Shown one piece after another: positions 12,382 to 38,416 of a stretch of 51,060 nt of DNA. Both the position numbers and the translations under genes were made by a program. The stretch lies in contig JAIQGL010000039.1 of the NCBI GenBank assembly GCA_020072585.1, positions 1-51,060 of the forward strand, read 5' to 3'. Source of the DNA: Terriglobia bacterium (GTDB lineage Bacteria; Acidobacteriota; Terriglobia; Terriglobales; Acidobacteriaceae). The notes under the pieces were generated by a model, which saw only the letters and a list, made by a program, of their open reading frames with translations, was not told where the DNA came from and did no database searches. The first letter of the stretch is position 1. Every line of letters begins with the position of its first letter.

Positions 12382-12488
12382 AACTCCTTGTCCCTTTTCC
12401 TCATTTGGAAGACCATATGACATAGCAGCCGCAACCAAGATGCAGAGCATGCTGGCTGGCATATGGGACCAATCAAGTCCTGCTATTT

Positions 12489-14112: not shown

Positions 14113-14409
14113 TTCTCACCCTCATCTTTCTACATATCGAAACTCGCACCAGAACGCAATGCGCCATTTCATCATTTTTGTGCGATCTTAGCAGAAATTG
14201 TTTCAAAAAATTATCCCCCTGATTCCGCATCGTAATAACACTGACGATCAGAAGTAAAGTAGATTGGGTAATATTTAACAAAGTTGTCCTCGAAAATCAT
14301 TTTCCATATCGGGAAGGCGGTACACGCAGGTGCAAAGAAGTTGTGAGGTGCGTTCCTCGATAAAAGTGACAACTGGAAACAAAAATATTTTGCAGTCAAA
14401 ACATTACGC
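14113..14409. other. Intergenic region with partial promoter box
   Basis: Contains GTCACTTTTAT on the minus strand (14360-14370), pointing at the sigma gene 250 bases away. The second box is poor (CACCT at the expected spacing), so this is only a weak copy of the element and possible autoregulation is unproven. Confidence 0.3.
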
Positions 14410-15258
14410 ATGGAGCAAGGTCCATGTAAGGAAACCACCACCAGTGCGACCAACCACTACAAAGGTGTGTCGCTCCCCGGAGTAACTACATTGAAAACTG
14501 AACATGGTGGCGCTAGGAAAGTTAACCAAGTGGTTCACAGTATCACAGATCTGATGCAGGACAGGGACAGCCGCATCCGGTTGATTATTTTCGCAATTGG
14601 TTTTTCACCGATTGCCAGCCTTTCTCTTTCAACCTTCAACCTGATTCCTCTTTATATCAGCGGGCCTGCAATTGTTCTTCCGTGTCTTGTGGGTGCGCTT
14701 ATTTTAGGATCCGTTGTTCCTCGTTATGCGCAGACCCTTGTGCGTGGCTTTACTATTGGGCTGATAGCGGTGTTTCTCTACGATCTGACCAGCCGTTTCC
14801 CCTTCATTCTTACTGGTCTCTGGCCGGACTTCATCCCCAAAGTCGGGTCTTATCTTCTTCGCCAGCAGCATGTTCACTGGCTTGTGGGCTATCTGTGGAG
14901 ATATATAGGAAACGGTGGCGGCATGGGCATTGCATTTTATGCGGTCTATCCATTGATCAAAAAACATGCGAAACCACTCAAGGCCGGAGTGCTGTATGGC
15001 TTGATAATTTTCTGCTGTCTCCTGGCTACTGTTTACCTGTCCCCATCCGGAAGGACTTATCTCTTCAACCCAACGGCCTTGACTGCTTGTCTTGGACTGT
15101 TGGGCCACATCGTGTATGGCTTCATCTTGGGATGCGGAGCTAAGCATTTTCCTGATGCTGCAATGGTCTCTGCTGCTTCTTCCGAGACGGTTGTATTTTC
15201 TGTTGCTTCTCCCGAGGCTGTTGTATTTTCTGAACAACTTCGCCGGCGGATCTCGTAA
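14410..15258 (+). CDS. Polytopic membrane protein of unknown function
   Basis: A 282-residue protein with about six hydrophobic segments, at roughly 57-77, 82-104, 110-130, 163-183, 195-215 and 224-244. No family is recognised. The soluble N terminus of about 50 residues and the lack of a ribosome binding site at the first ATG make the start uncertain; M49 is an alternative. The C terminus carries two copies of a 10-residue unit (ETVVFS / EAVVFS), encoded by a 30-base tandem repeat at 15172-15231, outside the membrane region. It is divergent from the sigma factor gene. Confidence 0.5.
   Translation: MEQGPCKETTTSATNHYKGVSLPGVTTLKTEHGGARKVNQVVHSITDLMQDRDSRIRLIIFAIGFSPIASLSLSTFNLIPLYISGPAIVLPCLVGALILGSVVPRYAQTLVRGFTIGLIAVFLYDLTSRFPFILTGLWPDFIPKVGSYLLRQQHVHWLVGYLWRYIGNGGGMGIAFYAVYPLIKKHAKPLKAGVLYGLIIFCCLLATVYLSPSGRTYLFNPTALTACLGLLGHIVYGFILGCGAKHFPDAAMVSAASSETVVFSVASPEAVVFSEQLRRRIS
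15172..15231 (+). repeat. 30-base tandem repeat, two copies
   Basis: Two near-identical 30-base units near the 3' end of the membrane protein gene, encoding AASSETVVFS and VASPEAVVFS. They differ at a few positions and keep the reading frame. Confidence 0.8.
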
Positions 15259-15919
15259 GAAGCCTCGCACGGTCGCAAGAAAGCCGTGTGGACAGGAGAA
15301 AGACCTCGCTCTTTGTGCCTCGCCACTTCGAGATTGATCTGTATCAATCCATGGAATATTATCCTTCAGCAATTCTGTTTTCTTGGTTTAATTGTCCCGA
15401 TAATCGTCGGTGGCTGCTGTCATTTCTATCGCCTCTACCGCGTTGCTATATTTATTGACCCGGTATCCCCTGAAATCAATCAAGGGTACTGCTGAACAAC
15501 CAAGGTCCTGTTATAGCATTCCCGCACGAAACGCAATGGGTTCATTGCTTTCTGTGTGCTACCGGGATCATTGGCTGGATGATCGGGGCAAAAAACAAAA
15601 GACGGAACCAATCACAGCGAACGATTTATTGGAAACTCTCTCACGACCAAGTTCTAAACGAGGAGCTCTTCTTGAAAGCACGCAGTCATACTTTGCTTGT
15701 TCTCTCTCTGCTCTTGAGCTGGTAAGTTCCTAAAAGGGTAAAGATATTTCGCGGCAGGCCACGCAATTCGTGCTGGCCCTTTCTGGCTTTGACGGATTAA
15801 AGAAGCGTTCCAGGAAATTGCAATGTCAACGCTCTAAAATGCGACGGGACCATCATTTCTGATGGCCCCGGTGTCACCGCATGTTCAATACAGCTGTTAG
15901 TTGTTGTCCTTGTCATTTG
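15259..15919. other. Non-coding stretch
   Basis: About 660 bases. One open frame (15410-15733, plus) was examined and rejected for lack of a start signal and protein-like pattern. No RNA gene, terminator or repeat was recognised. Confidence 0.5.
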
Positions 15920-22237: not shown

Positions 22238-23270
22238 TTACGCAGCCCGTCGTTCGTAGCGATGGTGCAAGCCACCGACCTGCGGTATTTCGATCACCCT
22301 TCCAATCGATGGCGGTTGGACTGGGCGAGGAATCGGAGTGTCCTTCTCCAGTCCCAGATGAGTTCGCGACCTCTCGTAATAATCAAAATAAAACTTCAAG
22401 ACGCGCCGGAGACCGCGCTCGTTGAAGACGAGCACATGGTCGAGACAATCACGACGGATAGAGCCAATCAATCTCTCGACGTAGGCATTCTGCCAAGGCG
22501 AGCGCGGAGCCGTGAGGACTTCTTGAATCTCCATCGCTCTAGTCGTTTGTTCAAACGCTCTTCCATAGCTTCCGTCTCGGTCACGAAGCAAATACTGAGG
22601 CGGGGTATCCCAAGGGAAAGCGTCAATGAGTTGTTGCGATGTCCACTCAGCGGTTGGGTGAGCTGTCACGGCAAAATGCATCACTCGCCGACGTTCATGC
22701 GAGAGCACAATAAAAACGAACAGCAGCCGGAATGTTGCTGTTGGAACAACGCAGAAGTCTGTTGAGACCAAGTCCTGCATGTGGTTCTTCAAGAATGTCT
22801 TCCATGTTTGTGAGGGCGGCCTGCGCGGACGGACCATATACTTCGCCACCGTGGTTTCACCGATATCAATGCCGAGCTTAAGCAATTCGCCATGAATTCT
22901 CGGTGGCGCCCCAGCGAGGATTGTCCAGGCTCATCTTTCGGATCAGAGTGCATACGTCGCGACTGATCGGTGGGCGGCCATGCCGTGCTCGACTCTTCCA
23001 AGTCCAGTACAGTCGGAATCCCTTGCGATTCCAAGCAATGACGGTCTCTGGCCTTATGATCCTCAGAGGCAGCCGCTAGTTCTTCCATAGACGAGACAAC
23101 CAGACCCAAAACACTCGATCTGCCGCTTTGAAGCGAAGACGGCGGCCGCGTGTGGCACGCTGTAGAACAAGAACCTGATGGCGCAGCGCCAGGATTTCAG
23201 CTTGCAAGGCCGCACGGGTACTCAGACAGCTTCGCAGAGACGAAAGCAAGAGGAAGAAAATGTCGAACAT
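22238..23270 (-). pseudogene. Integrase-core transposase (insertion sequence), frameshifted
   Basis: Three minus-strand frames add up to one transposase. The N terminus is at 23270 (coiled-coil-like region ALQAEILALRHQVLVLQRA), a middle part lies near 22900-23080, and the C-terminal catalytic rve domain lies at 22238-22885. The DDE-type elements VSTDFCVV, LRDRDGSYG and PWQNAYVERLIGSIRRDCLDH are visible. Frame changes near 23080 and 22890 break the protein, so it is inactive. It ends only 14 bases from the truncated pentapeptide gene, so the insertion may explain the loss of that gene's 3' half. No terminal inverted repeats were identified with confidence. Confidence 0.8.
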
Positions 23271-23284: not shown

Positions 23285-23906
23285 TTACAAGCGACCGTTA
23301 TTAAATTCAACTGATTCAATCAGAACGGAGTTTTCACTAGAGACAACTAAAAGAGAGGACAAATTTGATACAAAAGGTTCTGGTATTCCTGCTTGTCGTA
23401 GGAATTCTTCAGGAATGCTGCCATGGCAAAAGGTGTCCATTCCGATGCTAGACGGGCCAACATGCCTCACCTTTTCAAGTCCGTTTGCGCTGATCAAATT
23501 GAGAGTTCCTAAAATTGAATAGCCAAATAAAGCATCCTCAAAAACAGCATTGCTTACATCCGCCCTGCTCAGATTCACCTCTCTGAGATCCGCCCAGCGG
23601 AAATCTGTCCCGACAAGACGCGCTTCACGCAGGTCGGACCCCGTGAGGTAGGCCCCAAAAAGAAACGCATTGCTCCAGATCAGCGAAGCTGAGGTTGGAG
23701 TCCTTTAGCTCAGCACCAATTAGATTTGCTTCGCGAAGATCTGCTTTGCTGAGGTTTACACAGTTTAAGTCCGCCTGATGCAGGTTAAATCGGCGCAGGT
23801 CAGTCTCCCGAAAATCCAGGTAAACGCCCATATTCCTTTCCCGCCAACGGTTCCAAGCTTCCACACCCTGCTGTTTGAGGATCTTAAGAAGAGTCTCATC
23901 TGCCAG
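23285..23906 (-). pseudogene. Pentapeptide-repeat protein, paralogue lacking TIR domain
   Basis: A decayed paralogue of the neighbouring pentapeptide-TIR gene. The N terminus begins LADETLLKILKQQGVEAWN, aligned with MADEEHLNVLKQGVDAWN of the neighbour; the start codon is CTG where the paralogue has ATG. Pentapeptide repeats follow (ADLNCVNLSKADLREANL), and a frameshift near 23670 moves into the frame that encodes TGSDLREARL and the linker GPSSIGMD...IPEEFLRQAGIPEPF. It stops where the TIR domain should begin. The next element is the dead transposase. About 41 bases of upstream sequence are also shared with the paralogue (24018-24058 and 25352-25394), which supports tandem duplication. Confidence 0.7.
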
Positions 23907-24284: not shown

Positions 24285-25261
24285 TTATGTTCCATTGTGG
24301 GCTGCTGGCTTGGATTTGCATTCTGCTTTCAGATCTCTCAGAAGACGGTCAAATGCTTTCTTGTAAGAATCATGATTCTGCCAACTTCGGAAGTCGCTAA
24401 TATGGCGGGTTCGGCGTATGTCTGCAGCCCAAGCCTGCTTGGTTTGCTTTACCGCATCATCGAGGCGAATCGGAAATAATACAGTTCTGTCTTGCTCCCG
24501 TTCCTTCTCAAAAGCAGTTTCAACTTCCTTCTCAACCCACGGGCTCTTGATCGAACTTTCTGACAGAACGACCATAAGTTTGTCGTGCACCCGTATTGCC
24601 TGATCGAATGCCGACCGCAATTTATCTCCAGTCTTTAAGTCCTCTGGAGCAAACCAACAACGGACTGCTTTGTTTTGCAAATCGGCATGCAGGCGATTTG
24701 CAAAGTCCTGATCCTTGCTTGAGTAGCTGATGAAACAAGAATAAAACTCAAAAGCCGTGCCCATTAGGGAGTGCACATAGGCAACAAGGTTTTCAGGCAC
24801 ACCTGCTCCACGCAAGAACGCATCAGGAATCGCACCTCTAGAACTGTAGATCGTATCTATTCCGATGGGGGATGGCCCTTCATGTTTAACTGTTTCGAGT
24901 CCCTCGACAGAGTCAAGATTAGTGGAAACCAAAAGTGTTCCATTCATTTTGGAGTGACTGAGTTTTGTCTTCCACATCTGAGCGCCAGTGAGATTGGTCC
25001 AACGCAGGATAGCCCACTGAAGATTCGCCTCGGCAAGTTGTGCCCCTGTCAGATTTGCCGCAAACAAATCCGCTCCACTTAGTCTGATCGGTCAAGGACA
25101 GCTACTTGTAGGTTCGCTTCACGCAGGTTGATACCGCTGAGATCCCAGTGAGTAAGGACAGCTCCGCTTAGCTCTGGTACGACCCTTGAATTCACAATCC
25201 GCCATGCATTCCATGCATCGACGCCCTGTTTTAGAACGTTGAGGTGTTCTTCGTCTGCCAT
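24285..25261 (-). pseudogene. Pentapeptide-repeat and TIR-domain protein, single frameshift
   Basis: The gene starts at 25261 (MADEEHLNVLKQ) with a short helical leader and pentapeptide repeats (LSGINLREANLQ). At about 25080 one missing base turns GACTTAAGT-type sequence into a stop (GACTAA). Restoring one base joins it in frame to LSGADLFAANLTGAQLAEANLQ, a linker of about 60 residues, and a C-terminal TIR domain of about 150 residues (CFISYSSKDQDFANRL, SSIKSPWVEKEVETAF with the probable catalytic Glu). TIR domains in prokaryotes often consume NAD+ in antiphage or stress responses. If the frameshift is real the protein is two halves; if it is a sequencing error the gene is intact, about 325 residues. 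Confidence 0.7.
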
Positions 25262-25348: not shown

Positions 25349-25984
25349 AAGTAGGCGGCAAGCGGCGCATCTTCAAAGTCCTTGAATCCTTGCGCGTTGG
25401 GCAGTTCCCGGGCTCGCGGGCAGATCGACGTCTTTGCGCCTGCACGTCTATCCGGCAAGCTGGAAACTGTCGTGTGCTATCCCGACAAAATGTCGATCGC
25501 TATTGAAAGCGGTCCAACTAAACTGAGGCAGGTCTTGGTTGGAGAGGAAGGCTGGGTCGTCCAAAATGGCAAGACCTTCGGAGCTCCACCACAGGCGCTG
25601 CAAAGCCTGAAAGTCGGCTTGTTCCACAACATCAACAATTTGTGGCGGTTCCTCGCGAACCCTGCCAACCTTCCATATATCTCCGTCCAACCACACAATG
25701 GTACTTCGACCATCGTCATCATTCGCCCAGGCAACGCCGACAGAATTAGCAAAATCGACTGCGACGACGAACTCACTATGCGCAGCGTCTCGTACTGCTC
25801 ATGTGATTCATCCGGACAACTAATACAGAACAGGATCGAATATGACGGCTTTCACGAACGGAACAGTATTCGTTATCCGGCCAAGGTACGTTCCTATCAG
25901 AACGATCAGTTGATATCCGAGGTTCGCCATGACGACTATGAAACAGACATAGAACTAGGACCGTCACTATTTCAAAAAGTTTAG
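25349..25984 (+). pseudogene. LolA-like outer-membrane lipoprotein-sorting-type protein, 5'-truncated
   Basis: An open frame running from a stop at 25349 with no good ATG or ribosome binding site. The sequence has beta-rich motifs resembling LolA-like proteins (LRQVLVGEEGWVVQNGKTF, then IRYPAKVRSYQNDQLISEV and ETDIELGPSLFQKV), the last being typical of the C terminus of that fold. There is no signal peptide, so the 5' part is missing. The break lies within the short sequence duplicated upstream of the two pentapeptide genes, which may mark a recombination point. Function cannot be assigned and it may not be expressed. Confidence 0.45.
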
Positions 25985-26099: not shown

Positions 26100-28667
26100 A
26101 TGAAGTCCGACGTGGTGTTCGCATTTCCTAACTTCTCCTGGGGGCGCTTCAGCTCTTACCAGAAGCATTTAGGGGCGGCGTACCTAATGGCGCATCTCCG
26201 GCAGCGGGGCTGGACATGCTCTTTGTACCATCGACCTGCGACACAGTCTCTGGCACAAGCTGGACTGGAAATCGCCTCGTTGAGCCGCCGTTATGTGGGG
26301 TTCACTTGTTTCGACACAAATTTTCATTCTATCGCGCTTCTTTCTCGCGTTATCAAGCAGAGCAATCCTGACCTTGAGATCATCCTCGGTGGCCCATCGG
26401 CGACGTTCTCGGCTGACCTAGTACTACAGGCCGCCCCAGATGTTTCCGTTTGCTTCAAGGGGATGGCTGAAGAGTCACTGATTAAATATCTCGAGGCCAC
26501 CGGTACGGTCAAACCATATGTGTCCGGAACGGCAACCAGGGTTGATGGAAAGACTGTGCATAATTCCCCCATGCCGCTGCTCAGCGGCTCCTACGCAATT
26601 GATCATTATCCGTCGCCGTATCTGTCGGGAGTATTGGGTTTTCGAGATGGGCCCAGCGTGGGGGTTCTAACTTCCCGCGGCTGCTTCTATGGATGCACTT
26701 ATTGTAATTTCGCTGCCATGTCTAATCGGCGCATTCAGTTTCACTCTCCCGATCGCATCTTGTCCGAGTTGGAGGGTATCCGCGACGCACTGCGGGGCGG
26801 GGCAGGATCTCGTCCTGTCGTGACTTTTGCGGACGACTTTTTCACGATCCATCGCCCACGGCTAGTTGCAATTTGCAAAGGCATCATCGCGGCGCGAATG
26901 GCAGAGACACTGGCGTTCGAATGTCAGACTCGGGCTGATTGGGTCGATCGTGAACTCCTCGAAATGCTGCGGGATGCCGGAGTTGTAAAGCTGCATTTCG
27001 GGCTGGAGAGCGCTTCCCCCAAGGTTCTCAAACTAGTCAAGAAGCTCTATCCCAAGAGGCCCAATGTCAACGACTACGAGCCCGAACGGCAATTTCTAGA
27101 AACCTTCCGCCGCACGGTAGCCGACGCGAAACGGCTGGGTTTCAACGTTCATGTGTCCGCCATTTTCGGCCTGCCGGGCGAAGGGCCCGAGGAGGCGCAG
27201 CAGACACTGGACTTCGTCAAGAGCGTTGAGGCGGATGGCTATAGCCACAACTATCTCAACATCTACCCAGGTACGGAACTCTTCGAGACGTCTAAACAGT
27301 TCGGAATCACTGTCGGGCCCTCGGCCACGACCCTTCCGTTTCAGACCTATTACGCTTATGACGTCACAAAAGTACCAGTGCTCAACCTGCCAGGCGACCT
27401 GTTCAATGTTCGCGAACGCATCGGTCAGGAGTTTGCCCGTGCATTCTTCCCGCAAGGTAAATGGGAGAGCGATACGGCGTTCGCAAGTATCCGGTGCGAG
27501 TTATCACATCTGGATGGCAACAATCCTCTCTGGCCGTGGCTCCGGAACAACGCCGCCCCTGCCACGCAACTGCTCAACTGTCGCGCCAGCGGGGCATCGT
27601 ATGGGCCTGAGGATCTCTACTCGCATCTCATTTCAGCCGGTACGCCCATCGTAAACTACTACACGCTAGAGCCGCTTGAAAATGCTCAGCAGAGCGATGG
27701 GCTCCAGCAATGCGAAGAGATACGGTACGGCAATCGTGCCAGCGGTTTCGTGCTCCGGGTCGGCGTTCAGCATTTGAATATAGAGGCGATGATCGCCGTC
27801 TGGGAACGCCTGATTTTAGGCGGAGAGACTTCCCCCCGCGTTTATTTCACGGAAATAACATCGCCGGCGGACTTGATACAGATAGGTGAATTCCTGCGGC
27901 GGAACTCGCGGCAGAGCCGACTCCCACTGACCAATTCTTTTCTCACCCAAGATATGCAGGTCAGTAATATCTGCCAGTACGGCATTCGTCTCTGTCCGGC
28001 TTCCACCCGCGACGGATTCCAACTGGCGCAGGTGAATGCTAACGGAATGGTCCGTCCCTGTTGCGCCGGTCCTATCGTAGGCGACCTGAAATGCAATTTG
28101 CCTGGCTTGCGTAAGAACTTCCTGGAGATTTTTAGGGCCGCCAACGAGAACCGTTGTGTAGGGTGCAGCCGCGCCAGAGCGTGTTCGAAATGTCCATCTC
28201 TGGATTGCGGGGGACTCAAGAATCGATGCGACCTTTCGATGGTGTTCTCCTTCCTTGAACTTGTTCGCATGCGCGAGCGAATTGCGCTTCTCGCTTCTCC
28301 CGGCAACCAAGAGACGTTCGAACTCATGCTAACGCCTCCCGCGTTTGTGAGTGACTCCGCCAATCACAATGGCGACTGCCGACGCCTTGCGCCGGAATTC
28401 GAATGGCCGGAAGTTTTGACTTTGGCCTCTCGCAACCGCTTTCTGTTGCTCGATTTGAATAGTTCGGACGTCTTCGAACTCAACCACACGATGGTGGAGA
28501 TTTTCGAAGCGCTGCGCAACCGCATTCCCTGGAACGATGCCATGCAATATTTCACCAAAACCTATTTGGTCCCTGAGGCTCAAGTGGAATCTTGTATAGA
28601 CACGGCACAGACTCATTTTAAGGAGATGTTTTCGCAAAGAAATCTCTCTCCGGCGCCGGGGCGATAA
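26100..28667 (+). CDS. B12-binding radical SAM protein with SPASM-like and PqqD-like domains (module 1)
   Basis: An 855-residue enzyme. The N terminus is a B12-binding-like Rossmann domain (LGGPSATF at about 96-103); the classical DxHxxG is not seen. The radical SAM core starts with GCFYGCTYC (C195, C199, C202), binding the 4Fe-4S cluster that cleaves SAM. Further motifs are FADDFF, FGLESASP and GLPGEGPEE. A SPASM-like Cys cluster follows (RPCCAGPIVGDL, then RCVGCSRARACSKCPSLDC, about 655-706). The last 75 residues (FLLLDLNSSDVFELNHTMVEIFEAL) look like a PqqD-type recognition domain. These traits point to peptide modification, probably C-methylation or cross-linking. No ribosome binding site is obvious; TAATAT lies just before the ATG. 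Confidence 0.85.
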   Translation: MKSDVVFAFPNFSWGRFSSYQKHLGAAYLMAHLRQRGWTCSLYHRPATQSLAQAGLEIASLSRRYVGFTCFDTNFHSIALLSRVIKQSNPDLEIILGGPSATFSADLVLQAAPDVSVCFKGMAEESLIKYLEATGTVKPYVSGTATRVDGKTVHNSPMPLLSGSYAIDHYPSPYLSGVLGFRDGPSVGVLTSRGCFYGCTYCNFAAMSNRRIQFHSPDRILSELEGIRDALRGGAGSRPVVTFADDFFTIHRPRLVAICKGIIAARMAETLAFECQTRADWVDRELLEMLRDAGVVKLHFGLESASPKVLKLVKKLYPKRPNVNDYEPERQFLETFRRTVADAKRLGFNVHVSAIFGLPGEGPEEAQQTLDFVKSVEADGYSHNYLNIYPGTELFETSKQFGITVGPSATTLPFQTYYAYDVTKVPVLNLPGDLFNVRERIGQEFARAFFPQGKWESDTAFASIRCELSHLDGNNPLWPWLRNNAAPATQLLNCRASGASYGPEDLYSHLISAGTPIVNYYTLEPLENAQQSDGLQQCEEIRYGNRASGFVLRVGVQHLNIEAMIAVWERLILGGETSPRVYFTEITSPADLIQIGEFLRRNSRQSRLPLTNSFLTQDMQVSNICQYGIRLCPASTRDGFQLAQVNANGMVRPCCAGPIVGDLKCNLPGLRKNFLEIFRAANENRCVGCSRARACSKCPSLDCGGLKNRCDLSMVFSFLELVRMRERIALLASPGNQETFELMLTPPAFVSDSANHNGDCRRLAPEFEWPEVLTLASRNRFLLLDLNSSDVFELNHTMVEIFEALRNRIPWNDAMQYFTKTYLVPEAQVESCIDTAQTHFKEMFSQRNLSPAPGR

Positions 28668-28717
28668 CAACCCGAAGCGAGCTACGTCCCGAAACGCCGC
28701 CTTGCAGACGGGCTGCA

Positions 28718-28798
28718 ATGAGCGCTCTATTCAGGCAAGACAATCGTGAAATGTTCCTGAAACAAACACGCGGTTCACTCACAAGGAGCAACCAATGA
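28718..28798 (+). CDS. Possible 26-residue leader peptide
   Basis: A short frame beginning MSALFRQDNREMFLKQ whose TGA overlaps the ATG of the following radical SAM gene (ATGA). It may serve translational coupling or be a small product. There is no recognisable precursor motif and no ribosome binding site, so it is speculative. Confidence 0.2.
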   Translation: MSALFRQDNREMFLKQTRGSLTRSNQ

Positions 28799-31302
28799 TG
28801 AACAACACCGCTATATTCGTGCATCCTTATTATGTCAATAACCACTTCTTGGGATACACGCATCATTATGGATGCTCCTCGATCATCAGTCACTTGAAGA
28901 CACGAGGCTTTGCAGCCGAGCCATTTCTTGCGGATGTCCACTGTTCGGTCCAACAAGTGGCGGAAACTCTGGCCTCTCGCAGCCCACGATTCCTGGGCTT
29001 CTCCTGTTATGACAACAACTTCTACTTGATCCGGCTGATCGTGGCTGAGGTTCGGCGGCGCAACAAAGATGTCGCGATTGTGCTCGGCGGGCCTTCCGCG
29101 TGCTTTTCTTCGCAGATTATTCTTCGTGAACTTCCGGAAGTCGATGCTTGCGTGGCGGGGGACGGGGAAGAAGTGGTTTGCAGTGCCCTAGAACAAGGGC
29201 TAAGGCGTGACTTCTTACCGTCTCTTCCTGGACTCGTTACCAGACAGTCGTTGTGTGAAAGTGAAATTGTTCCAGCAAATCTTCCCGCCAACATAAACAA
29301 CTACTCCTCTCCCTATATTACCGGCGAAATACCGGGAGCATATGCTCCGAGAGTCGGCTTAATTTCATCGCGTGGTTGTTATTACCACTGCACCTATTGC
29401 AATTTTGCCGCGTTGTCGGGATTCAAAGTCAGGAGTTATGACTGTGACCGGCTTCTCAGCGAGTTGTCCAAGATCGCCTATGACCTTCATGGACGCGAAG
29501 CGGCGATTCCGTTTTTTGACGAGTTCTTCACCTGCTCAAAGCCGCGCTTGCGACAGATTTGTCAAGCCATCCGGGAAAACGGTTTGCACGAACAGCTGAC
29601 TTTCAGCTGCCAGACGCGCATCGATGGCATCGACGAGGAGGCGCTCGACCTTCTATGGAGCGCAGGCTTCCGCATAGTGGGTTTCGGTATCGAAAGCGCG
29701 TCGCCGCCAATTCTGCGCAACATCCGAAAGGCCAGGCTTGGCAAGCGCACGGCTGAAGCTGGATCTGCCCCGGAAGAAGAGTTTCTCGAAGCAACTCGCA
29801 GATCGGTCGCGCTTGCCAAAAGGAAAGGGTTTCACGTCACCGCAAGCATAATTCTCGGATTGCCTGGCGAAACTGCCGAAGACGGCCGCCTCAGTCTCGA
29901 CTTTATAGAAGAATTGCAACCCCATGCTTATAGTCACAACTTTCTCATGGTTTTTCCCGGAACGGAGTTGTTCCGAACCTCCAAAGATTACGGCATTGAG
30001 GTGAAGCCGTCGCTAACCGTCCTTCCGTTTCATACGACAGCCGCCTATGATACGGCTAGTCTGGGATATCTGAAGGGGATGCTGGATGTTGGATATAAAG
30101 ACCGCGCCTACCTTGTCAACCTGGTTTTGGGAGGGGCGGGTCGCAGCACCTTTGGCGATTCTCTTATTTGTTTGATTAAACAAGACCCTGGACCGGCGGA
30201 GCCAAATTATTGGAGTGCGATTAAGCCTCAGGTTTTTCCCGATACTCCATTTGTCCTGTTTCAAAAAGGCTGCAATCCGGAGTGGTACTACAAGAACTTT
30301 GCCGGCATGGTTCGCCATGAATTGCCGATTCTTGAGCAATACATTGTGGCGGAGCGGGATGGCGGTCTGGATCTATTCGTCTGCAATCGGGGCAATTGGA
30401 GCCCCGTCACGCGTGCCTTCTCCCACCACATCGCGCTACGGCCGCTGGCTGCGCTGGAGAATCCAGCAGGTGCTGCAGAACAAACCGATACTCTCTATAC
30501 GGTTCGACAAAACGACGATTGGCAGGTATTGGAGCATTACGTGAGTGACTATGCCTCCGGGCGGCCGGCATCTATACCGGGTAACTTTTCGGCAGGGAAA
30601 ACGGGAATTGAAAAGCTCTGCCGCCTGGGGCTGGGCTGCTCGCTGCGCAGAGGGACAGGCATGTTCCCCGACGATGCCGGCAGTTATCGCAGTCTCTGCG
30701 GGCTGTGTTTCGCAAACGAGAAACCAGACGTGGGAGTCCATCAACTTCTGGAACAAGTCGTCGAGGAGCGAACGTGCTGCGGATGCAGCGCCCAACCTTG
30801 GTGCAGTCAATGCATGCAACTCGATCACATTGCAAGCGAGAGATTCTGCCACACCATGCGGACCGGCGACTGCATCGTTGACTGTGCCCGCATTTTAGAA
30901 TTCGCCGCGCTGAAGTCGCAAGCCGCGGATCCCGGCAATCAGACAATAGCTCACGGGCGTGTCAAAAACCTTCTGGGCCGCTCCGAAGAGTGCATTGCGC
31001 TGGACAGGCCAATTCGCGGCCGGGCCAATGGCGACGCGACCCACCTGCAGCCTGGAATTGCTCTGATCCGCTTTGACGGCCAACCTGTGCTCTATGCCTA
31101 CGCGCGTCGAGAATTCATTGAAATCAGTCTCCCACTGGCGGAGGTGGCGGAGGCTTTGGAGCTAGGGGCCGAATTGGAAGACATGTTCCCGTATTTTTCG
31201 GAGAAATATGGCATGGAGGAAGAGGAGACCAGGAGCAAGATTGATCAAGCCCTTGGGATATTAGGTGAATACGGATTAATCCAATGCGCATTATCCCATT
31301 GA
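28795..31302 (+). CDS. B12-binding radical SAM protein with SPASM-like and PqqD-like domains (module 2)
   Basis: An 835-residue paralogue of module 1, with the same domain order. The B12-binding-like domain has LGGPSACF, and the radical SAM motif GCYYHCTYC has its Cys at 195, 199 and 202, identical numbering to module 1. Later motifs FFDEFF, FGIESASP and GLPGETAED align. SPASM-type Cys lie in SLCGLCF and CCGCSAQPWCSQC. The C-terminal segment from about 757 (LIRFDGQPVLYAYARREF) is PqqD-like. AAGGAG precedes the ATG. It follows module 1 by 127 bases and overlaps module 3 by about 19 bases, so the set is one operon. Its own recognition domain suggests that each module binds the substrate separately. 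Confidence 0.85.
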   Translation: MMNNTAIFVHPYYVNNHFLGYTHHYGCSSIISHLKTRGFAAEPFLADVHCSVQQVAETLASRSPRFLGFSCYDNNFYLIRLIVAEVRRRNKDVAIVLGGPSACFSSQIILRELPEVDACVAGDGEEVVCSALEQGLRRDFLPSLPGLVTRQSLCESEIVPANLPANINNYSSPYITGEIPGAYAPRVGLISSRGCYYHCTYCNFAALSGFKVRSYDCDRLLSELSKIAYDLHGREAAIPFFDEFFTCSKPRLRQICQAIRENGLHEQLTFSCQTRIDGIDEEALDLLWSAGFRIVGFGIESASPPILRNIRKARLGKRTAEAGSAPEEEFLEATRRSVALAKRKGFHVTASIILGLPGETAEDGRLSLDFIEELQPHAYSHNFLMVFPGTELFRTSKDYGIEVKPSLTVLPFHTTAAYDTASLGYLKGMLDVGYKDRAYLVNLVLGGAGRSTFGDSLICLIKQDPGPAEPNYWSAIKPQVFPDTPFVLFQKGCNPEWYYKNFAGMVRHELPILEQYIVAERDGGLDLFVCNRGNWSPVTRAFSHHIALRPLAALENPAGAAEQTDTLYTVRQNDDWQVLEHYVSDYASGRPASIPGNFSAGKTGIEKLCRLGLGCSLRRGTGMFPDDAGSYRSLCGLCFANEKPDVGVHQLLEQVVEERTCCGCSAQPWCSQCMQLDHIASERFCHTMRTGDCIVDCARILEFAALKSQAADPGNQTIAHGRVKNLLGRSEECIALDRPIRGRANGDATHLQPGIALIRFDGQPVLYAYARREFIEISLPLAEVAEALELGAELEDMFPYFSEKYGMEEEETRSKIDQALGILGEYGLIQCALSH

Positions 31303-34300
31303 ATTCGCAAACGTCGAATGAACAACCGGTGGTCTGCGGCATGCACGCTGTGTCTGAAGCGGGGCTGGTTGTAGTCTGTCCGCGCTACGAGGAGAACGAC
31401 TTCCTGGGCTTTAGCTTCACCTATGGGACAGCCTGTGTGCAAGCATACCTCAGACAGCAGGGCATTGCAGCCGCCCACTACCTGTGCAGCGGAAGTCAGG
31501 GACTCGAGTCACATGCTGACGAAATCTTGCGGCTAAGACCGCAAGCCGTCAGCTTTACTTTATCCGACAGCAACTACTACCTCTGTTATCTGACAGCCAA
31601 ACTGATCAAGGATCGCCGGCCGGAGATAGCCACGATCGGCACCGGACCCGCTGCCACGCACTCGTATCAGTTGATTCTAGACGACCCGGGATCGCCGTTC
31701 GACCTGCTGATTCGAGGTAAGGCGGAAGTGGCTTTGGAGACGCTCTTCACTACTCCCGGTTCCCTGAAGGAAGTCGCATCCGGCTTCGGGTACAAGCGGA
31801 TTCTTACGGCAGATGACTTGCCCAGTCTGGATGCGATTCCATCTCCGTACGTCGACGGCACAATCGCTGCGCAAGTTCGGCTGATTGAGCGGGTTGGGAC
31901 ACTCATCTCCAGAGGCTGCACCCGATCCTGCACGTGGTGTGAACTCCGCTCGCCCGGCCACGCCGGCGCTCAGTTTCGCTCCATTGATCACGTAATCGAG
32001 GAATTAAGTTTCTTGGTTCAAGCTACCCGCAAGGAGCGGGCTGGAAGCAATTTGTTTCTGCCGCTCCGTGACCGCTACTTCACGATCGACCGCCAGAGAA
32101 CCCTGGCGCTATTGGATCGAATGATTTCCGAAGGTCTCAATCATGAGCTTCGGTTCAGTTGCCAAACTCCGGCAGACGCGGCGGATCCCGAGCTCTTGCA
32201 GCGCCTCCAGATGGCAGGCTGTTCCGCGCTGAATCTGAGGCTTGATAGCGCCAGTCCGCGGGTGCTGAACAGGATCAAGAGAAACCAGCCCACAGAAGGT
32301 GCGGACGCCGACTACGGCGAGGAACGCCGCGCACTTGCTGCCGGGCGCGAGAATGTGCGTGTGGCGAAGGAGCTGGGCATTCCGACGCGTCTCACCATCA
32401 CTCTGGGCCTGCCGGGGGAAACCGCCGAAGAGGGCGCTGCGACGCTGGCTTTCGTCGACGGCTCGGACTGTACTTCCTACGCGCACAATTTCTTTCGCGC
32501 AGTCGAGGGCAGAGAAGCTTTTGGGGACTGCGCCCGATACGGCATTAAAGTCCGTCCGAGCGCCAGCGGCCTACCCTACCTTACGACGCCTTCTTACGAT
32601 GTGCTTAGCCTGCCGTTTTCGTCGCGAAAGCCGCTGGCCAATGTTGGTTCGCGGAAGACCGGCCAGCTCAACGATCATCTGCGGGGATTTTCAACCTGCT
32701 TTAACCCGGAAGACCGCACTGCGCCGCGCTTTCTCTACCTGCATGGAGCGCCCGCAGACTACGGTAACGAAGTGTTGTGTGATCTGCGCCCCCACATAGC
32801 ACCGGATGCGCGATTGTACCTGGCCGAACCGGCAGAGGCGGCCGCCGTTGCGGCGCTGTATCTCCGTATGGTCACTCAGCGCCTGCCCGTTACCTGTGTC
32901 TATGGGCGATTGGTTCTCGGGAACGACACTCGGCTGGTGCCCTTTGACCAGGGAGAGAGAACGCCGGTTTCGGCAGTATTCTCGACGCAGATCGAGTCTG
33001 TTCCTCTCCAGCACTACCCGGATTTGCAACACTTTTGTGCCTCCAGAAACAGCCATGATTGGGTTGGGCTGCTGACCATCGAGTCGCTCAACGATTTAGA
33101 GACTCTTGCCAGTTTGTGCCGGCAGGCGGAGGCTGACGGCTGCTTCAATGTCCCTCCAGATCTTGTTGGCTACAAGTATGCGTTGAAGGAATCGTGCCGG
33201 TGGGGCTGCCGCCATTGCCGTGACTATTTCCGACTCGGGGTGCAGGCAGTGCACGTGAGCCCGGAGGGCAGCGTGCGCCTTTGCGAACGAGGGCCGATCG
33301 TGGGCACGCTCAAAGAACAGCCCAGCGTGTGGCGAGAGCGTATGGAGAGTTTCGCATCAGATCTGGAGCGTGAGCGCGGCTGTGACTCCTGTCCGGCCAC
33401 CGACCGCTGCGCCCACTGTATGGTTTCCGAACCAATTTCAGCCCATCAATATTGCTCGTTCCATTTGAATAACCCCGACGCCGGAGAACTCACGAATTTG
33501 CTGCTCATGAAGCAGTATTTGTCACCGCTCGGCGAAAAACAGACGCAGGCCATTTCTGGGACCGCGGACATGAAACTCTCGCTTGCCGCATCGGGGCGCA
33601 CAGTCTACTTTCAGGTTTCCACTAACAACACGGACAGAATGGATTGCTCTGCCGGCCAGCTTCAAAAACGGGTTCGCATACGTGACCAGAAGCGCCTGAT
33701 TGGGGTGCAAGACATGGCGTACATCGTGGACCTGTGGACACTGGAGGTCATCGAAATTTCCAGGCCACTTGCCGAGCTCTGGGAGGCGTTTCAGACGAAC
33801 GCCTCGCCCGCGGCAATGAGGCAATTTTTCACCGCCAAGTATTCGCTCTCCCCAGAAACAAGTGTCGAGCAAACTAGAAGAGGCACAGCTCATTTTACGA
33901 GATTACGGAGTCTTGGTGTGAAGGAGCCGGCAGTGATACATCCTACTTCTGATGAAATCAGCTTCGTGTATCCCAAGTACCAGCAAGCGCTCTATAAAGG
34001 CTGTACATTTCATTATGGCGTCGGCAGTCTGCGGGCTTCTTTGGCCTCGGCGGGAATTCGTTCAAGCATGGTCATGGCCGACCGAGACTGCTCGATTCCG
34101 GGAATCGTAGATAAGATTTCCGCTACTCGCGCTCCGATTGTAGGTTTCACTTGCTATGACGAGAACTTCTACCTGGCATCGCTTATTATCGAGGCGCTCA
34201 AAGCGCGTAACCCGGAAGTCAAGATTCTCATCGGCGGTCCCGTCGCTACGTTTTCCGATGAGTGGCTTCTTCGGAATATGCCATTGGTTGACTATGCAGT

Positions 34301-36521
34301 AAGGGGAGAAGCAGAAACAACACTGCCCACGTTGGTAACTGCTTTGCTTGACGGGAATGGCCACAGGTTTCCTTCGGCGGGTATCTCTTTCCTAGATGGA
34401 GATCAGGTCATCCGCACTCCGGATGCGGAGCTATCCGGGTCAAACCAGAAAGGCGCCGAACTGGACATACTCCCTTCGCCTTACATCTCCGGTTTCTTAC
34501 CCGCGTCCGTTGCAGGGCAACTAGGATTTCAAACCTCGCGCGGCTGCGTGTACAAATGCGCTTATTGCAATTTCACCACCATCGCCAAAAACCGGGTCCG
34601 ATACTTCTCCGTTCAAAGAGTGCTAGAGGAGCTGGCCTTTCTCGCAGAGAACCTTCCTGATCCTGTTCAACACGTTATTTCCATTTTCGACGATTTCTTC
34701 TCGGTTCATCTGCAGCGCGCCAAACAGATCCTTCGCGGCATGATCGATCTTGGCTTGCAAAAGCGAATGCATTTTCTGTGCGAGACCCGGGCCGATGCGG
34801 TGGATCGTGAGTTTTTCGCGCTGCTGAAAGAGGCCGGAGGCCGCAACATCAATTTTGGACTGGAGAGCGCTGTCCCACGAGTGCTGCGGAATGCACACAA
34901 GGTGAGTTGTGGCTCATCCCCATCTCTTGCTCCCGAAGAACGATTCCTGGCTTGCGTCGAGCAGGCGGTCAAGTGGGCGCAAGAAGAAAAGCTCATCAAC
35001 AGCGTCTCTATTATCCTCGGGCTGCCTGGCGAGACTTTCGAGGACGGGCAAGCTACCCTCGAATTTGTCAAACGCCTGAATTGCACAACCTATAGCCACA
35101 ATTTCCTTCAAGTGTTCCCCGGAACCGAGCTTTTTGAAAACTGCGAAAAATGGGGGATCCGGCTGATGCGTCCGGTTACGGGCCTGCCCTTTCTCACTGG
35201 CCAAGCCTACAACGTCTTTGATCTTCCCTGCTTGCCGCATGGGAACGCGACTTCGCGCTGGAAAGGACGGAATAGAATGCTGGGCGCCTTTGTGAGCGGT
35301 GTGCCCGAGTACTCGGACCAGCCCGCCATGCTTGATCTGACCCATGTCGATGATGCCGGCCTGTCCTCGCTGTATCAATGGATCACGCCAGCAAGTGAAG
35401 TGCTGGTTAACTACTCCGGCGCCATCACCCGGGACAAGGTCGCATCCGATTTCGAACGGTTTACTCGTTTTCGACTGCCCATTCCGCGCTTCACCATTAT
35501 AGGGGAAAACGGGTCGGCCTCAGTCGGCAGCACTGCCAATTGGGGCGTCTTTCAACCGCAGAACTTCGATAGCCGGATTCAATGGATTCCTTTCAAGGAA
35601 TTCCAGTGGCAACGAGTCTGCGCTACGACAGACTCCCTTAGCCAGACTCTGTTCCTACTCAGTATCGAGGATGAACAAGACCTGGCGGCATTCGCAAAGG
35701 AAATTGAGACTCTAGATCGGGAGCGGAGCTATTCTATCCCGCTGGAGGGATTCGCTCATGCGGTGTTGCTGAAGGACTCCTGCCGGTTCGCCGCCAAGCC
35801 CTGTGTTGAAATTGGCAGCAATCGGCGTTGGATCGCCCGTGGACAGGACATGATTCCGTGCTTTCACGGAGAACCAGTGGGCAGGTTGTCCGGGGGGCCG
35901 AGGGCCTGTGACGCGGCGCTGACTCAGGTTGATCATACTAAGGCTGAGCTTCGATCTTGCGAGAAATGTGACAGCCGCCGCGTGTGCTCGCACTGCCCGT
36001 TCCCATTTCCATTCGCGTCCGATGCGAGCTATTGCGAGTTCCGCCGGGTCCACTCCGGCGCGGCCTGGTTTGAGCGCGTGCTCTGGGTCAAGAACGCATT
36101 GCTTGGGAATGAAACGAAACCTAATATCCCGAAAAGTGACTCGGCACAAACCTGCCGAATCAAAGTGGACCTGGGATGGTCAAAGCCACTGTTGCTTGAC
36201 ACGCCCTCCATTCCCCAGTGGACCACCGCACCGCCGTACGCAAGGCGTGTGTTGGAAAGCCCATTCTCTCGCGATGCATTTCTGTTAAGCGTTCCGGAAT
36301 GTTCCTATGCAATTCTTCCCGATACCCTGGAAGGCGCGGAGCTGACGCCGGCACTGGCCGCGATCTGGGAAGCCATGTGCATGAGAATGGAGCCGGGAGC
36401 GATGAAGCAATATTTTTGCGATAAGTACAAGATAGGGAGCGACTGTTTTGACCAGAATCTGGTCGCGGCGTTGGCTGAATTCGAAGCATGTGGCCTTCTA
36501 GCTCCCCCAGCCGGAGCCTGA
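31284..36521 (+). CDS. Double B12-binding radical SAM fusion protein (modules 3a and 3b)
   Basis: A 1745-residue protein made of two complete modules head to tail. Module 3a (about 1-885) has GCTRSCTWCE at C212, C216 and C219, FGDCARYGI and SPASM-type Cys (CDSCPATDRCAHC), and a PqqD-like part near 803-882. Its B12-type motif is altered (IGTGPAATHS) and NF after the third Cys is replaced by EL. Module 3b (about 890-1745) has IGGPVATF, GCVYKCAYC at C1088, C1092 and C1095, a Cys cluster (CEKCDSRRVCSHC) and a C-terminal PqqD-like domain from about 1665. The start overlaps module 2; M20 is an alternative start because the homologous region begins there. The fusion may keep two consecutive steps together. 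Confidence 0.85.
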   Translation: MRIIPLNSQTSNEQPVVCGMHAVSEAGLVVVCPRYEENDFLGFSFTYGTACVQAYLRQQGIAAAHYLCSGSQGLESHADEILRLRPQAVSFTLSDSNYYLCYLTAKLIKDRRPEIATIGTGPAATHSYQLILDDPGSPFDLLIRGKAEVALETLFTTPGSLKEVASGFGYKRILTADDLPSLDAIPSPYVDGTIAAQVRLIERVGTLISRGCTRSCTWCELRSPGHAGAQFRSIDHVIEELSFLVQATRKERAGSNLFLPLRDRYFTIDRQRTLALLDRMISEGLNHELRFSCQTPADAADPELLQRLQMAGCSALNLRLDSASPRVLNRIKRNQPTEGADADYGEERRALAAGRENVRVAKELGIPTRLTITLGLPGETAEEGAATLAFVDGSDCTSYAHNFFRAVEGREAFGDCARYGIKVRPSASGLPYLTTPSYDVLSLPFSSRKPLANVGSRKTGQLNDHLRGFSTCFNPEDRTAPRFLYLHGAPADYGNEVLCDLRPHIAPDARLYLAEPAEAAAVAALYLRMVTQRLPVTCVYGRLVLGNDTRLVPFDQGERTPVSAVFSTQIESVPLQHYPDLQHFCASRNSHDWVGLLTIESLNDLETLASLCRQAEADGCFNVPPDLVGYKYALKESCRWGCRHCRDYFRLGVQAVHVSPEGSVRLCERGPIVGTLKEQPSVWRERMESFASDLERERGCDSCPATDRCAHCMVSEPISAHQYCSFHLNNPDAGELTNLLLMKQYLSPLGEKQTQAISGTADMKLSLAASGRTVYFQVSTNNTDRMDCSAGQLQKRVRIRDQKRLIGVQDMAYIVDLWTLEVIEISRPLAELWEAFQTNASPAAMRQFFTAKYSLSPETSVEQTRRGTAHFTRLRSLGVKEPAVIHPTSDEISFVYPKYQQALYKGCTFHYGVGSLRASLASAGIRSSMVMADRDCSIPGIVDKISATRAPIVGFTCYDENFYLASLIIEALKARNPEVKILIGGPVATFSDEWLLRNMPLVDYAVRGEAETTLPTLVTALLDGNGHRFPSAGISFLDGDQVIRTPDAELSGSNQKGAELDILPSPYISGFLPASVAGQLGFQTSRGCVYKCAYCNFTTIAKNRVRYFSVQRVLEELAFLAENLPDPVQHVISIFDDFFSVHLQRAKQILRGMIDLGLQKRMHFLCETRADAVDREFFALLKEAGGRNINFGLESAVPRVLRNAHKVSCGSSPSLAPEERFLACVEQAVKWAQEEKLINSVSIILGLPGETFEDGQATLEFVKRLNCTTYSHNFLQVFPGTELFENCEKWGIRLMRPVTGLPFLTGQAYNVFDLPCLPHGNATSRWKGRNRMLGAFVSGVPEYSDQPAMLDLTHVDDAGLSSLYQWITPASEVLVNYSGAITRDKVASDFERFTRFRLPIPRFTIIGENGSASVGSTANWGVFQPQNFDSRIQWIPFKEFQWQRVCATTDSLSQTLFLLSIEDEQDLAAFAKEIETLDRERSYSIPLEGFAHAVLLKDSCRFAAKPCVEIGSNRRWIARGQDMIPCFHGEPVGRLSGGPRACDAALTQVDHTKAELRSCEKCDSRRVCSHCPFPFPFASDASYCEFRRVHSGAAWFERVLWVKNALLGNETKPNIPKSDSAQTCRIKVDLGWSKPLLLDTPSIPQWTTAPPYARRVLESPFSRDAFLLSVPECSYAILPDTLEGAELTPALAAIWEAMCMRMEPGAMKQYFCDKYKIGSDCFDQNLVAALAEFEACGLLAPPAGA

Positions 36522-36527
36522 TCGACC

Positions 36528-37294
36528 ATGAAAATTACAATGATTGGTCACAGCACGACTTTGATTGAGACCGGGGGAATGCGCATCCTCACCGATCCTT
36601 ACTTCGGGCTTCGGGGCAACCCCGCCTATGCCCGGCTCAAGCCTCCGGCCCAACCCAGAGAGGAACTGAAGGACATTGATTTAGTGCTTCTCTCTCACCT
36701 TCATTGGGACCACACCGACCGGCAGTTCCTGCGATCATTGAGCGACAGTGTGCCGGTTCTGGCCCCGCAAGGGCGGACTTCCTGGCTCGCTGTAAGGGCG
36801 CCAGAAATGTGATCGGGTTGCGTCCGGGCCAGCAGCTCAAGTACGCGGTGAGGATCACCACCGTTCCGGCCCTGCACATTGCTTCGACCATTGGTTTCGT
36901 GATCGAAGCACTGGATGGCGTCATATATTTCGCTGGCGACACCTATTTTGGGACGTTTATGAAGGAGATCGGGGCTGGCTTCCGTTTAGATGTGGCCCTC
37001 ATGCCGGTCACGACGTATCGGGTTCCGATGACGATGGGCGAGAAAGGTGCGGTCCTCGCGGTCAGCGTGCTGAAGCCCCGCGTCGTCATTCCTATTCACC
37101 TCGGCATTGCGCCGCGTTCCAGGGTGTTACGCACATCCGAAACTGCGGAACATTTTCGGACGCGAGTGCAGCAGGCTGGGCTGCCGGCCGATGTGGTAAT
37201 TCTGCGCGAGGGCGAAGTTTGGGAACACAATGCCGGGAGCGAGAATGCGGCATCTTCACAGGCTCACGCGACACCACAGCTCACACAGCCGTAA
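36528..37294 (+). pseudogene. UlaG-like metallo-beta-lactamase-fold hydrolase, frameshifted
   Basis: Begins 6 bases after the fused radical SAM gene. The N-terminal part (MKITMIGHSTTLIETG) carries the metal-binding motif SHLHWDHTD. The frame shifts near 36770 (after LAPQGRT), and the continuation in the +2 frame (DFLARCKGARNVIGL ... FAGDTYFGTF ... VVIPIHLG) supplies the other metal ligands and reaches the stop at 37294. The joined protein is about 255 residues, normal for UlaG-type lactonases and phosphodiesterases. One base gained or lost explains the break. If the frameshift is real the enzyme is dead; otherwise it could act like PqqB, the metallo-beta-lactamase-fold partner in PQQ synthesis. 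Confidence 0.75.
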
Positions 37295-37352
37295 ACAGGT
37301 ACCCGCGGCGATTCTGCCCGCAAACCCGGACACTTGCAGAAGGGAATTCGCA

Positions 37353-38066
37353 ATGAACAAAATGAAACGGCTGCTCCTGGGCCTTGTAATGGCGATTGTC
37401 CTGGTTTTTTGCGTTAGGCTCCTGGTTCATTTTGGTTCCAAGCCGCCTCTCATCATGACCGAAGACAATTCTCCAAACCCTCAGGAGCAGATTCTTGTGG
37501 CGGCCGGTCAGCCCACCTTCCCACTTTCTGGAAACCGGGTCGTATTGTTTTTTACCCCCGCATGTCCGAGTTGCCGCCAGGAGGTTGCCACTCTGAACGC
37601 ACTCCGGAAAAGGCATCCGGAGTGGCAGTCCAGCAACCGGCCGCTCAGTTGGATTGCCGTCAGCCTAGGCGGCAAGCGCTCCACCACCCGCTACCTTGGT
37701 GGCACCGGCTGGCGCATCTACTTCGATCCGGAGCGCAAAGCTCTTTCTTCCCTTGGCTACACGAAAGTTCCTCTTCTACTCCTCATCAATGAGGGCGACC
37801 AATTACGTTACAGGCGGGTTGGGACCTGCACCCCGGCTGAGGATGAGCGCGCGCTGGGCGAGTTCTACCAGGGCCAAGAAATCGCTCCCGCCGCAGCTTG
37901 TCCCTTCCTCATCAATGAGGGCCAGCCATTACAATACAAGCGGGTCGGAACTTGCACCCCGGCTGAGGATGAGCGCGCGCCAGGCGATTCTCACCAGGGA
38001 CAAAGCGGTCCCGACGCACCTTGTTCGCTGAACGAAAGTGAGAAAGGAAACGGTCATGGCAGGTGA
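37353..38066 (+). CDS. Membrane-anchored thioredoxin-like (TlpA/ResA-type) protein with duplicated C-terminal segment
   Basis: A 237-residue protein with an N-terminal membrane anchor (about 6-27) and a periplasmic thioredoxin fold with the active site CPSC (C71, C74). The segment VPLLLLINEG includes the conserved cis-Pro-type strand. After it, a 42-residue unit (RYRRVGTCTPAEDER) is repeated as YKRVGTCTPAEDER, encoded by a 126-base direct repeat. Such proteins reduce or oxidise disulfides outside the membrane and assist c-type haem or Cys-rich peptide maturation. GAAGGGAATTCGCA before the ATG supports the start at 37353. It follows the metallo-beta-lactamase gene, so it is probably part of the radical SAM operon. 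Confidence 0.75.
   Translation: MNKMKRLLLGLVMAIVLVFCVRLLVHFGSKPPLIMTEDNSPNPQEQILVAAGQPTFPLSGNRVVLFFTPACPSCRQEVATLNALRKRHPEWQSSNRPLSWIAVSLGGKRSTTRYLGGTGWRIYFDPERKALSSLGYTKVPLLLLINEGDQLRYRRVGTCTPAEDERALGEFYQGQEIAPAAACPFLINEGQPLQYKRVGTCTPAEDERAPGDSHQGQSGPDAPCSLNESEKGNGHGR
37781..38005 (+). repeat. 126-base tandem duplication within the thioredoxin-like gene
   Basis: Copies begin at 37781 and 37907 with CCTCATCAATGAGGGC. They are nearly identical over the first 95 bases or so and in frame, which suggests a recent duplication. Confidence 0.85.
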
Positions 38067-38229
38067 AATCTGTATTCGGCGCAACCGCGTGCTGGCGGTG
38101 TTGTGCGCCAACGCGATTCTTTGGGCCGCGACGATCGTGGCAACAGGCAGTTTCTTGGTCGGGGGAGCGGCAATCGTGAGCCTTATTTCGATCCATTCGC
38201 TTTTGCTCCTCCGGTCCCGAACACCCTAG
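38056..38229 (+). CDS. Small hydrophobic protein, 57 residues
   Basis: Starts MAGEICIRRNRV, has two hydrophobic stretches (about 12-28 and 32-50) and ends RSRTP. GAAAGGAAACGGTC precedes the ATG, and the start overlaps the end of the thioredoxin-like gene by about 11 bases, which suggests coupling. It has no known domain. It could be a membrane partner or immunity protein, or less likely the precursor of the radical SAM enzymes: its few polar residues and single Cys do not resemble a typical core peptide. Confidence 0.55.
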   Translation: MAGEICIRRNRVLAVLCANAILWAATIVATGSFLVGGAAIVSLISIHSLLLLRSRTP

Positions 38230-38416
38230 TATTCCTAACTTCTTTTGTGCGCGCCTCATTTCTTTCCTTGCTATGACTCCGGAGGAACGCGATTGTTCAT
38301 GGGACTGTTCGCTTCCAAGCCAGCTCCAGCCTTGTCTCGCGTCGTTTCCAGAACATCGACACCGCAAACACAGTACAGGGGAGTTGTTATCGCCGATATT
38401 CAGTTCTTTGGAGGTT

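Follow-up and report, generated by a model that had tools for sequence, protein, structure and literature searches.

An array of four cobalamin-dependent radical SAM modules with predicted RRE-like tails in a Terriglobia bacterium

Introduction

According to the excerpts of PMC11285071 and PMC10635010 compared here, cobalamin (B12)-dependent radical S-adenosylmethionine (SAM) enzymes use radical SAM cleavage to form a substrate radical while methylcobalamin donates a methyl group, and recognition elements (RREs) of ribosomally synthesised and post-translationally modified peptides (RiPPs) bind precursor leaders as a fourth strand. The aminopyruvatide-cluster enzyme ApyD (NF050148; PMC10635010) is described there as an RRE-containing B12-radical SAM enzyme that C-methylates the β-carbon of tyrosine. 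In PMC11285071, bottromycin is given three radical SAM C-methylases, BotRMT1-3, which are encoded in one cluster and act on different residues of one precursor, and polytheonamide two B12-radical SAM C-methylases, PoyB and PoyC, for separate stretches of one precursor. Here we analyse a 51,060-nucleotide stretch of DNA from a Terriglobia bacterium (assembly GCA_020072585.1; "the window", which is the entire contig JAIQGL010000039.1), in which three adjacent genes, M1, M2 and M3-M4, hold four copies of a B12-radical SAM module.

ApyD is the first or second NCBIfam match of all three window proteins and the best match of M3-M4 (E 1.8e-43). However, the top-scoring stretches span just positions 64-392 or so of 645, at 89-149 bits (102.7, 89.1 and 148.9 for the three proteins) against a cut-off of 750, and because of this partial coverage and low score we do not regard the modules as ApyD. 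ApyD is, moreover, a single enzyme in a cluster with a multinuclear non-heme iron-dependent oxidative enzyme and a cytochrome P450. Bottromycin differs in having a precursor with a C-terminal follower, and the excerpt on it mentions neither tandem fused modules nor RRE tails; PoyB and PoyC are two enzymes, likened to the array by description in the excerpt and not by sequence. A further likeness is to SynChlorMet and lasso peptide clusters, since a neighbour of one Omnitrophota relative (locus L131) resembles ScmC (TIGR04249, E 6.3e-5) and other neighbours of relatives resemble ScmD (TIGR04248) or lasso PqqD (NF033536), but all these matches lie under curated cut-offs and no such neighbours were found in the window. 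RRE-containing B12-radical SAM enzymes and several C-methylases per cluster are thus already known. As far as our searches go, the module family, an RRE-like tail on each module, the fusion of two modules in a single protein, and four- and nine-module arrays are new. The initial annotation, made from this DNA, had known of no described system with such a layout; ApyD and bottromycin turn out to share parts of it, while the array itself was not found described in the excerpts compared, which also include PMC9062424, PMC9902471, PMC7470986 and PMC13331322. Among the open-licence papers listed in our searches, no title or abstract opening announces such an array, a weak test of its absence from print.

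Three adjacent genes encode four copies of one module

M1 (26100-28667, plus strand) encodes 855 amino acids (aa), in which a B12-binding and a radical SAM domain are followed by a Cys cluster of SPASM-like type and a tail that resembles an RRE, and M2 (28795-31302, plus strand; 835 aa) has the same architecture. The third gene, M3-M4 (31284-36521, plus strand), starts 19 bases inside the 3' end of M2 and encodes 1745 aa, with two modules fused in one protein; split at residue 882 into M3 (residues 20-881) and M4 (882-1745), it brings the modules to four, each of 835-864 aa. Pfam reports, above curated cut-offs, one B12-binding and one Radical_SAM domain each in M1 and M2 and two stretches of each in M3-M4. 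The presence of PF02310 and PF04055 in all three proteins and of CX3CX2C in all four modules places them in class B (cobalamin-dependent) of the radical SAM enzymes. BLASTP aligns all six module pairs (26-40% identity over the best stretch, E 8e-63 to 9e-100), with a single alignment extending into the tail for M1-M3, M2-M3 and M3-M4; M1-M2 reaches the tail in two stretches, and M1-M4 and M2-M4 end before or at its start. The four homologous copies of about 850 aa are one repeated module, and chance is excluded as the cause. This bears out the initial annotation, which had described four copies of one module order in three adjacent genes. It had also placed the first Cys of CX3CX2C at residue 195 in both M1 and M2, where we find it; in the third protein this Cys is at 212 and 1088, and all twelve CX3CX2C cysteines are intact. 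As for the second Cys cluster that it read as SPASM, seven cysteines including CX2CX5CX2C are indeed invariant in the four modules and in the first two relatives compared, but the SPASM profile is reported in M1 only, where 11.7 bits fall short of the cut-off (21.5), and not in M2 or M3-M4, which is why we call the cluster SPASM-like.

In full-model comparisons, the closest solved folds are the B12-radical SAM enzymes CysS, which we take to be a methylase, TsrM, TokK and MgmA, with AprD4 and OxsB also near; the full M4 model was built from an alignment of 24 sequences and has a predicted local distance difference test score (pLDDT) of 79 and a predicted template modelling (TM) score of 0.80. 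TokK and TsrM are methylases according to the excerpt of a review, and MgmA according to the title of its report. The nearest NCBIfam families of the window proteins are HpnJ, PhpK and ApyD, all far under cut-off. For M1 (E 7.8e-31) and for the relative at locus L049 (E 3.3e-39) the top match is HpnJ (TIGR03471), on which the three window proteins score 107.5, 85.3 and 130.8 bits against a cut-off of 577.6. The module family of the window array is uncharacterised.

The C-terminal tails resemble RREs by prediction

Each module ends in a putative RRE/PqqD-like tail on the plus strand, at 28302-28664 in M1, 30967-31299 in M2, 33573-33926 in M3, where it is internal in the fusion, and 36141-36518 in M4. 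The profile matches of the single tails are all under cut-off: PF05402 (E 0.053) and NF033530, lasso PqqD (E 0.081), for M1, and for M2 the PqqD family TIGR04353 (E 0.051), with StbA_2 scoring better (E 0.029). Compared with a set of 20 PqqD domains (19 of 22 from one search and one from another), the M1 and M2 tails alone reach hhalign probabilities of 54 and 57, and a profile of all four tails reaches 92 (E 5.9e-7, 65 columns). Among the controls, eight other stretches of the module give at most 1.8, and a ninth, which overlaps the tail, gives 74.

From an alignment of the four tails, AlphaFold2 predicts for the M3 tail a β-β-β-α-α-α fold with a pLDDT of 60 overall and block values of 75-86 over residues 61-110. 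In a Foldseek search of the PDB with this model, the top six matches are lasso RRE proteins (B1; 5v1v, 5v1u and 6jx3), with E from 1.4e-3 (5v1v) to 8.3e-3, probability 1.00 and TM by query of 0.47-0.53; no match has E < 0.001. Next come 5why, a sactipeptide enzyme entry that is presumably CteB (E 0.12), and, among unrelated proteins such as Atg18, ThcOx (E 0.44). The M4 tail is β3α3 in the full-module model, with block pLDDT of 61-69 over residues 781-850. The three-stranded sheet and three helices of the RRE/PqqD fold are thus predicted for the M3 tail, for M4 and through the four-tail profile, and on predicted fold and profile comparison we take the window tails to be RRE-like. PqqD-like C termini had been proposed at the outset, with structure prediction as the check; the M3 and M4 models and the four-tail profile uphold the proposal and no other fold appeared, but no tail attains the Pfam PqqD cut-off.

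The window modules have 157-174 residues after CX2CX5CX2C, compared with 37-77 in 19 relatives and 41-46 in three more Omnitrophota relatives (L132, also Omnitrophota, ends inside the gene and was excluded from the count). The long tail is absent in 22 of the 23 relatives checked, and the 23rd, an archaeal one (L083), is without CX2CX5CX2C. Judged by sequence, the long RRE-like tail is peculiar to the window array among the sequences compared. The archaeal gene (L083, 1265-3442) has kept its B12 and radical SAM halves and lost CX2CX5CX2C, and a 98-aa open reading frame (ORF) lies directly before it.

Relatives of the modules and a second array in Chloroflexi

Sixty other genomes, selected as relatives, contain no match to M2 at E 1e-30. 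The C-terminal profile hits three of 396 genomes of the phylum, and the full profile three of 399 of the class, the own genome included both times. In the phylum of the Chloroflexi relative the full profile hits one of 149 genomes, that relative itself, and in that of the Omnitrophica relative 12 of 384. Of these 12, five match over 71-98% of the profile and seven cover the catalytic half only; genome G449 and the four others that match at greatest length were used here. The phylum and class searches scored the best few candidates per genome, so that array counts are possible undercounts. A scan of named genomes gave 30 loci (L019-L024 family members, L025 an outgroup, L026 by module hidden Markov model (HMM) score only), with full members in a Methanotrichaceae archaeon, an uncultured archaeon, Acidobacteria, Omnitrophica, Chloroflexi and Bryobacterales. 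A module gene also lies on a 3338-base contig of a genome of the same phylum (G383), likewise at L021 in Acidobacteria bacterium CTSoil_012, a locus that agrees with L012 in length and gene, and viral contigs yield two matches at 23-24% identity.

The Chloroflexi genome G450 has nine tandem module genes on contig C43 (about 232.3-253.4 kb; from L079 8303 to L080 9464), two on C36 and one on C6. The nine-module array is without RRE tails and adjoins a gene for a signal peptidase-GNAT protein. Arrays thus occur in two genomes of different phyla, with four modules here and nine in Chloroflexi. In a tree of 27 rows, the family stands apart from three other B12-radical SAM enzymes at 100/100. Eight of the nine C43 genes fall into a single clade with the C6 gene (100/100), which indicates that this array grew mostly on its own, and the ninth groups with the C36 genes (96/95). 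M3 and M4 are sisters (96/87), M3 on a long branch. The four window modules form one clade in only 12% of 200 bootstrap trees, so a single common origin of the tail is unsupported.

Some relatives lie beside RiPP-precursor-like ORFs

Five small ORFs that resemble RiPP precursors lie by modules in Chloroflexi and Omnitrophota, two in L081 and one each in L131, L133 and L084, so that an uncharacterised B12-radical SAM/SPASM-like family is found beside precursor-like ORFs in two phyla. They share the motif Y-[KE]-x-P-x4-V-x-[VL], a pattern derived from these same five ORFs. Among the small ORFs of 17 loci (2942, of 25-130 aa), only these five carry it, all near modules. In leave-one-out runs, the left-out ORF is the best non-training match in three of four groups (E 0.002-0.003 for Chloroflexi, 2.8e-6 for L131 and 5e-5 for L084). 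Three of the five end Ala/Val/Gly-rich, and those of L133 and L084 are Ser/Pro/Gly-rich with Cys. The latter two are separated from their modules by about 100 bases (L133) and 0.5 kb (L084, on the opposite strand). At L133, inspection by eye shows four more radical SAM-like genes in a row (10988-15264) adjoining the module and the 54-aa ORF that resembles a precursor.

The gene context of these relatives is also RiPP-like. L081, on contig C36, holds two cassettes of a small ORF, an HprK-like gene and a module; the one HprK-like gene scanned matches weakly (TIGR04355, E 0.0044), and one cassette also has a PqqD gene (E 1.5e-10). In the second cassette a 64-aa ORF (14258-14452, minus strand) resembles, by eye, the start of the first cassette's PqqD and is perhaps a shortened PqqD. 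At L131, one strand carries in order a nucleotidyltransferase, PqqD (E 3.5e-16), a 51-aa ORF, an HprK/ScmC-like gene, a signal peptidase-GNAT gene and the module. Its HprK-like protein is 31% identical to that of L081 over 151 columns, and its peptidase-GNAT protein 25% identical over 309 columns (E 2e-23) to that beside the nine-module array. Other small ORFs lie directly upstream of the module in L049 and L083. The initial annotation had suggested looking for conserved small ORFs near homologous arrays; such a search yields the five motif ORFs of Chloroflexi and Omnitrophota, and none with the motif by the nine-module array or in the window.

A different conserved small ORF, with variable C-terminal ends, follows the single modules of Acidobacteriota (L090, 12271-12534; L091, about 9862-10089; L085, 5963-6340) and is perhaps another precursor type. 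This family occurs in two of 399 genomes of the class, exactly the two that have a module besides the own genome; as both belong to one genus, they are a single case, and Bryobacterales is a second.

A putative set of leader-guided peptide C-methylases

We think it probable that the four modules of the operon are cobalamin-dependent radical SAM enzymes that C-methylate a RiPP under the guidance of its leader, every one with an RRE of its own. In each, the tail would bind the precursor leader and present the core to the active site of the same module, where a methyl group would pass from methylcobalamin onto an unactivated carbon. By analogy with BotRMT1-3 of bottromycin, which are of the B12 type, each paralogue may act on a different residue. 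An RRE built into every module would leave the array with no need of a shared PqqD; two relatives have the leader-binding protein as a separate PqqD. The finished peptide probably carries several C-methyl groups and is perhaps hydrophobic, because three of the five precursor-like ORFs of relatives (the other two not) end Ala/Val/Gly-rich. In a bolder form, which we consider doubtful, the array would be an assembly line in which four modules, each with its own grip on the leader and its own choice of site, heavily C-methylate one hydrophobic peptide, and the nine-module Chloroflexi array would be a larger version without built-in RREs, array length scaling with the number of modified sites. The array points to peptides that bear several C-methylations, and with one RRE per catalytic module it would offer a clean test of how leader binding is divided among paralogues.

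Several results weigh against this interpretation. Methylation as the reaction is assigned by family resemblance. The M2, M3 and M4 tails have no Pfam PqqD match and that of M1 is under cut-off; alone, the M3 and M4 tails reach hhalign probabilities of 1.9 and 5.0, and in the M3-tail model residues 31-60 have block pLDDT of 39-60, the first strands lying at about 40-60. Regex and HMM searches over the small window ORFs give no credible ORF with the shared leader motif, and the sole match in the own genome at the E 0.1 threshold (E 0.028) falls within a gene interpreted as ileS. The window neighbours searched, which were part of the genes, include no exporter, leader peptidase or HprK gene. Among relatives, the L133 ORF is not in the best eight of its leave-one-out run, no motif ORF was found in L049, L082, L083, L012, L134, L090, L091, L085 or the nine-gene array, and it is the different small ORF that follows the single modules of G456, G463 and Bryobacterales.

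The rival that survives best is other peptide chemistry, in which the B12-radical SAM core and SPASM-like cluster would introduce rings or links (C-C, C-S or others) into a RiPP precursor. Radical SAM enzymes that crosslink peptides typically have SPASM clusters, AprD4 (diol dehydratase) and OxsB are among the closest folds, and the precursor-like ORFs of L133 and L084 have Cys in their Ser/Pro/Gly-rich ends. The top structural relatives, on the other hand, are mostly methylases and the other three ORFs end Ala/Val/Gly-rich, and we regard such chemistry as unlikely. It is more improbable that the cluster is a decaying or orphan one, its enzymes acquired by horizontal transfer and its precursor and accessory genes lost, a scenario compatible with the other readings as to past function. 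The lack of M2 matches in the genomes chosen as relatives, the broken frame of the metallo-β-lactamase (MBL)-fold gene downstream and the integrase piece upstream fit it, but three long open frames across 10.4 kb with all twelve CX3CX2C cysteines retained do not. Least probable, by a small step, is a small-molecule or lipid pathway with HpnJ-like action on a non-peptide and a vestigial or carrier-protein-binding tail, which the HpnJ matches of M1 and L049, though far under cut-off, and the lack of a precursor in the window would suit; RRE-like tails on all four modules and the precursor-like ORFs, PqqD and HprK-like genes by some relatives count against it. No homologue in a known non-peptide pathway, which the initial annotation had named as grounds for rejection, was seen among the part of the relatives whose neighbours were read. 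Its observation is confirmed, and its interpretation as a chain of peptide-modifying enzymes is partly supported.

Candidate substrates

A very hydrophobic 57-aa ORF (38056-38229, plus strand) lies at the operon end, overlapping the preceding gene end by 11 bases, with a 19-residue Kyte-Doolittle mean of up to 2.2 and a purine-rich stretch before its ATG. Its codon score of 0.09 (as 38038-38229) ranks at the 95th percentile among 58 ORFs in its size class, which lends weak support, and it has no match in 119 other family genomes searched and no Pfam match. We put it forward as a tentative candidate for the array substrate; it could equally be a small membrane protein. The best leader-like ORF of the window (33446-33601, minus strand) reaches E 0.12 in one of the leave-one-out runs; it lies within M3 in antisense orientation and was rejected. 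A leader search of ten genomes also returned the two Chloroflexi cassettes and one match on contig C29 of G450 (E 0.09), and the Acidobacteriota small-ORF family (A4) was not found in the own genome.

Surroundings of the array

Six bases 3' of M3-M4 starts the MBL-fold hydrolase gene (36528-37294, plus strand), whose reading frame is broken near 36800, in the cell or in the assembly; its pieces (36528-36812 and 36704-37294), searched separately, both match PF12706. A thioredoxin/TlpA-like gene with an N-terminal hydrophobic stretch follows (37353-38066, plus strand); taken as the longer ORF 37230-38066, it matches PF00578 weakly and under cut-off (E 7.5e-4). Its end (37780-38040) shows a 126-base imperfect repeat, with 65 of 80 bases matching at that offset; Tandem Repeats Finder lists no repeat in 36500-38400.

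Upstream, the ORF at 25382-25984 has no credible family in library searches. At 24285-25067 and 23285-23864 (both minus strand), a TIR-domain protein with pentapeptide repeats (PF13676, E 4.3e-26) lies beside shorter ORFs that by eye resemble pieces of a similar pentapeptide protein, and the region is possibly a defence gene or its remnant. The integrase core piece (22238-22885, minus strand; rve_3, E 1.7e-12) belongs to an element resembling an insertion sequence. Elsewhere in the own genome (G000, contig C43; L001, 1429-2772), a 447-aa protein has an N-terminal PqqD domain, followed by what by eye are a radical SAM motif and a SPASM-like Cys pattern, and appears to be another RiPP-like enzyme.

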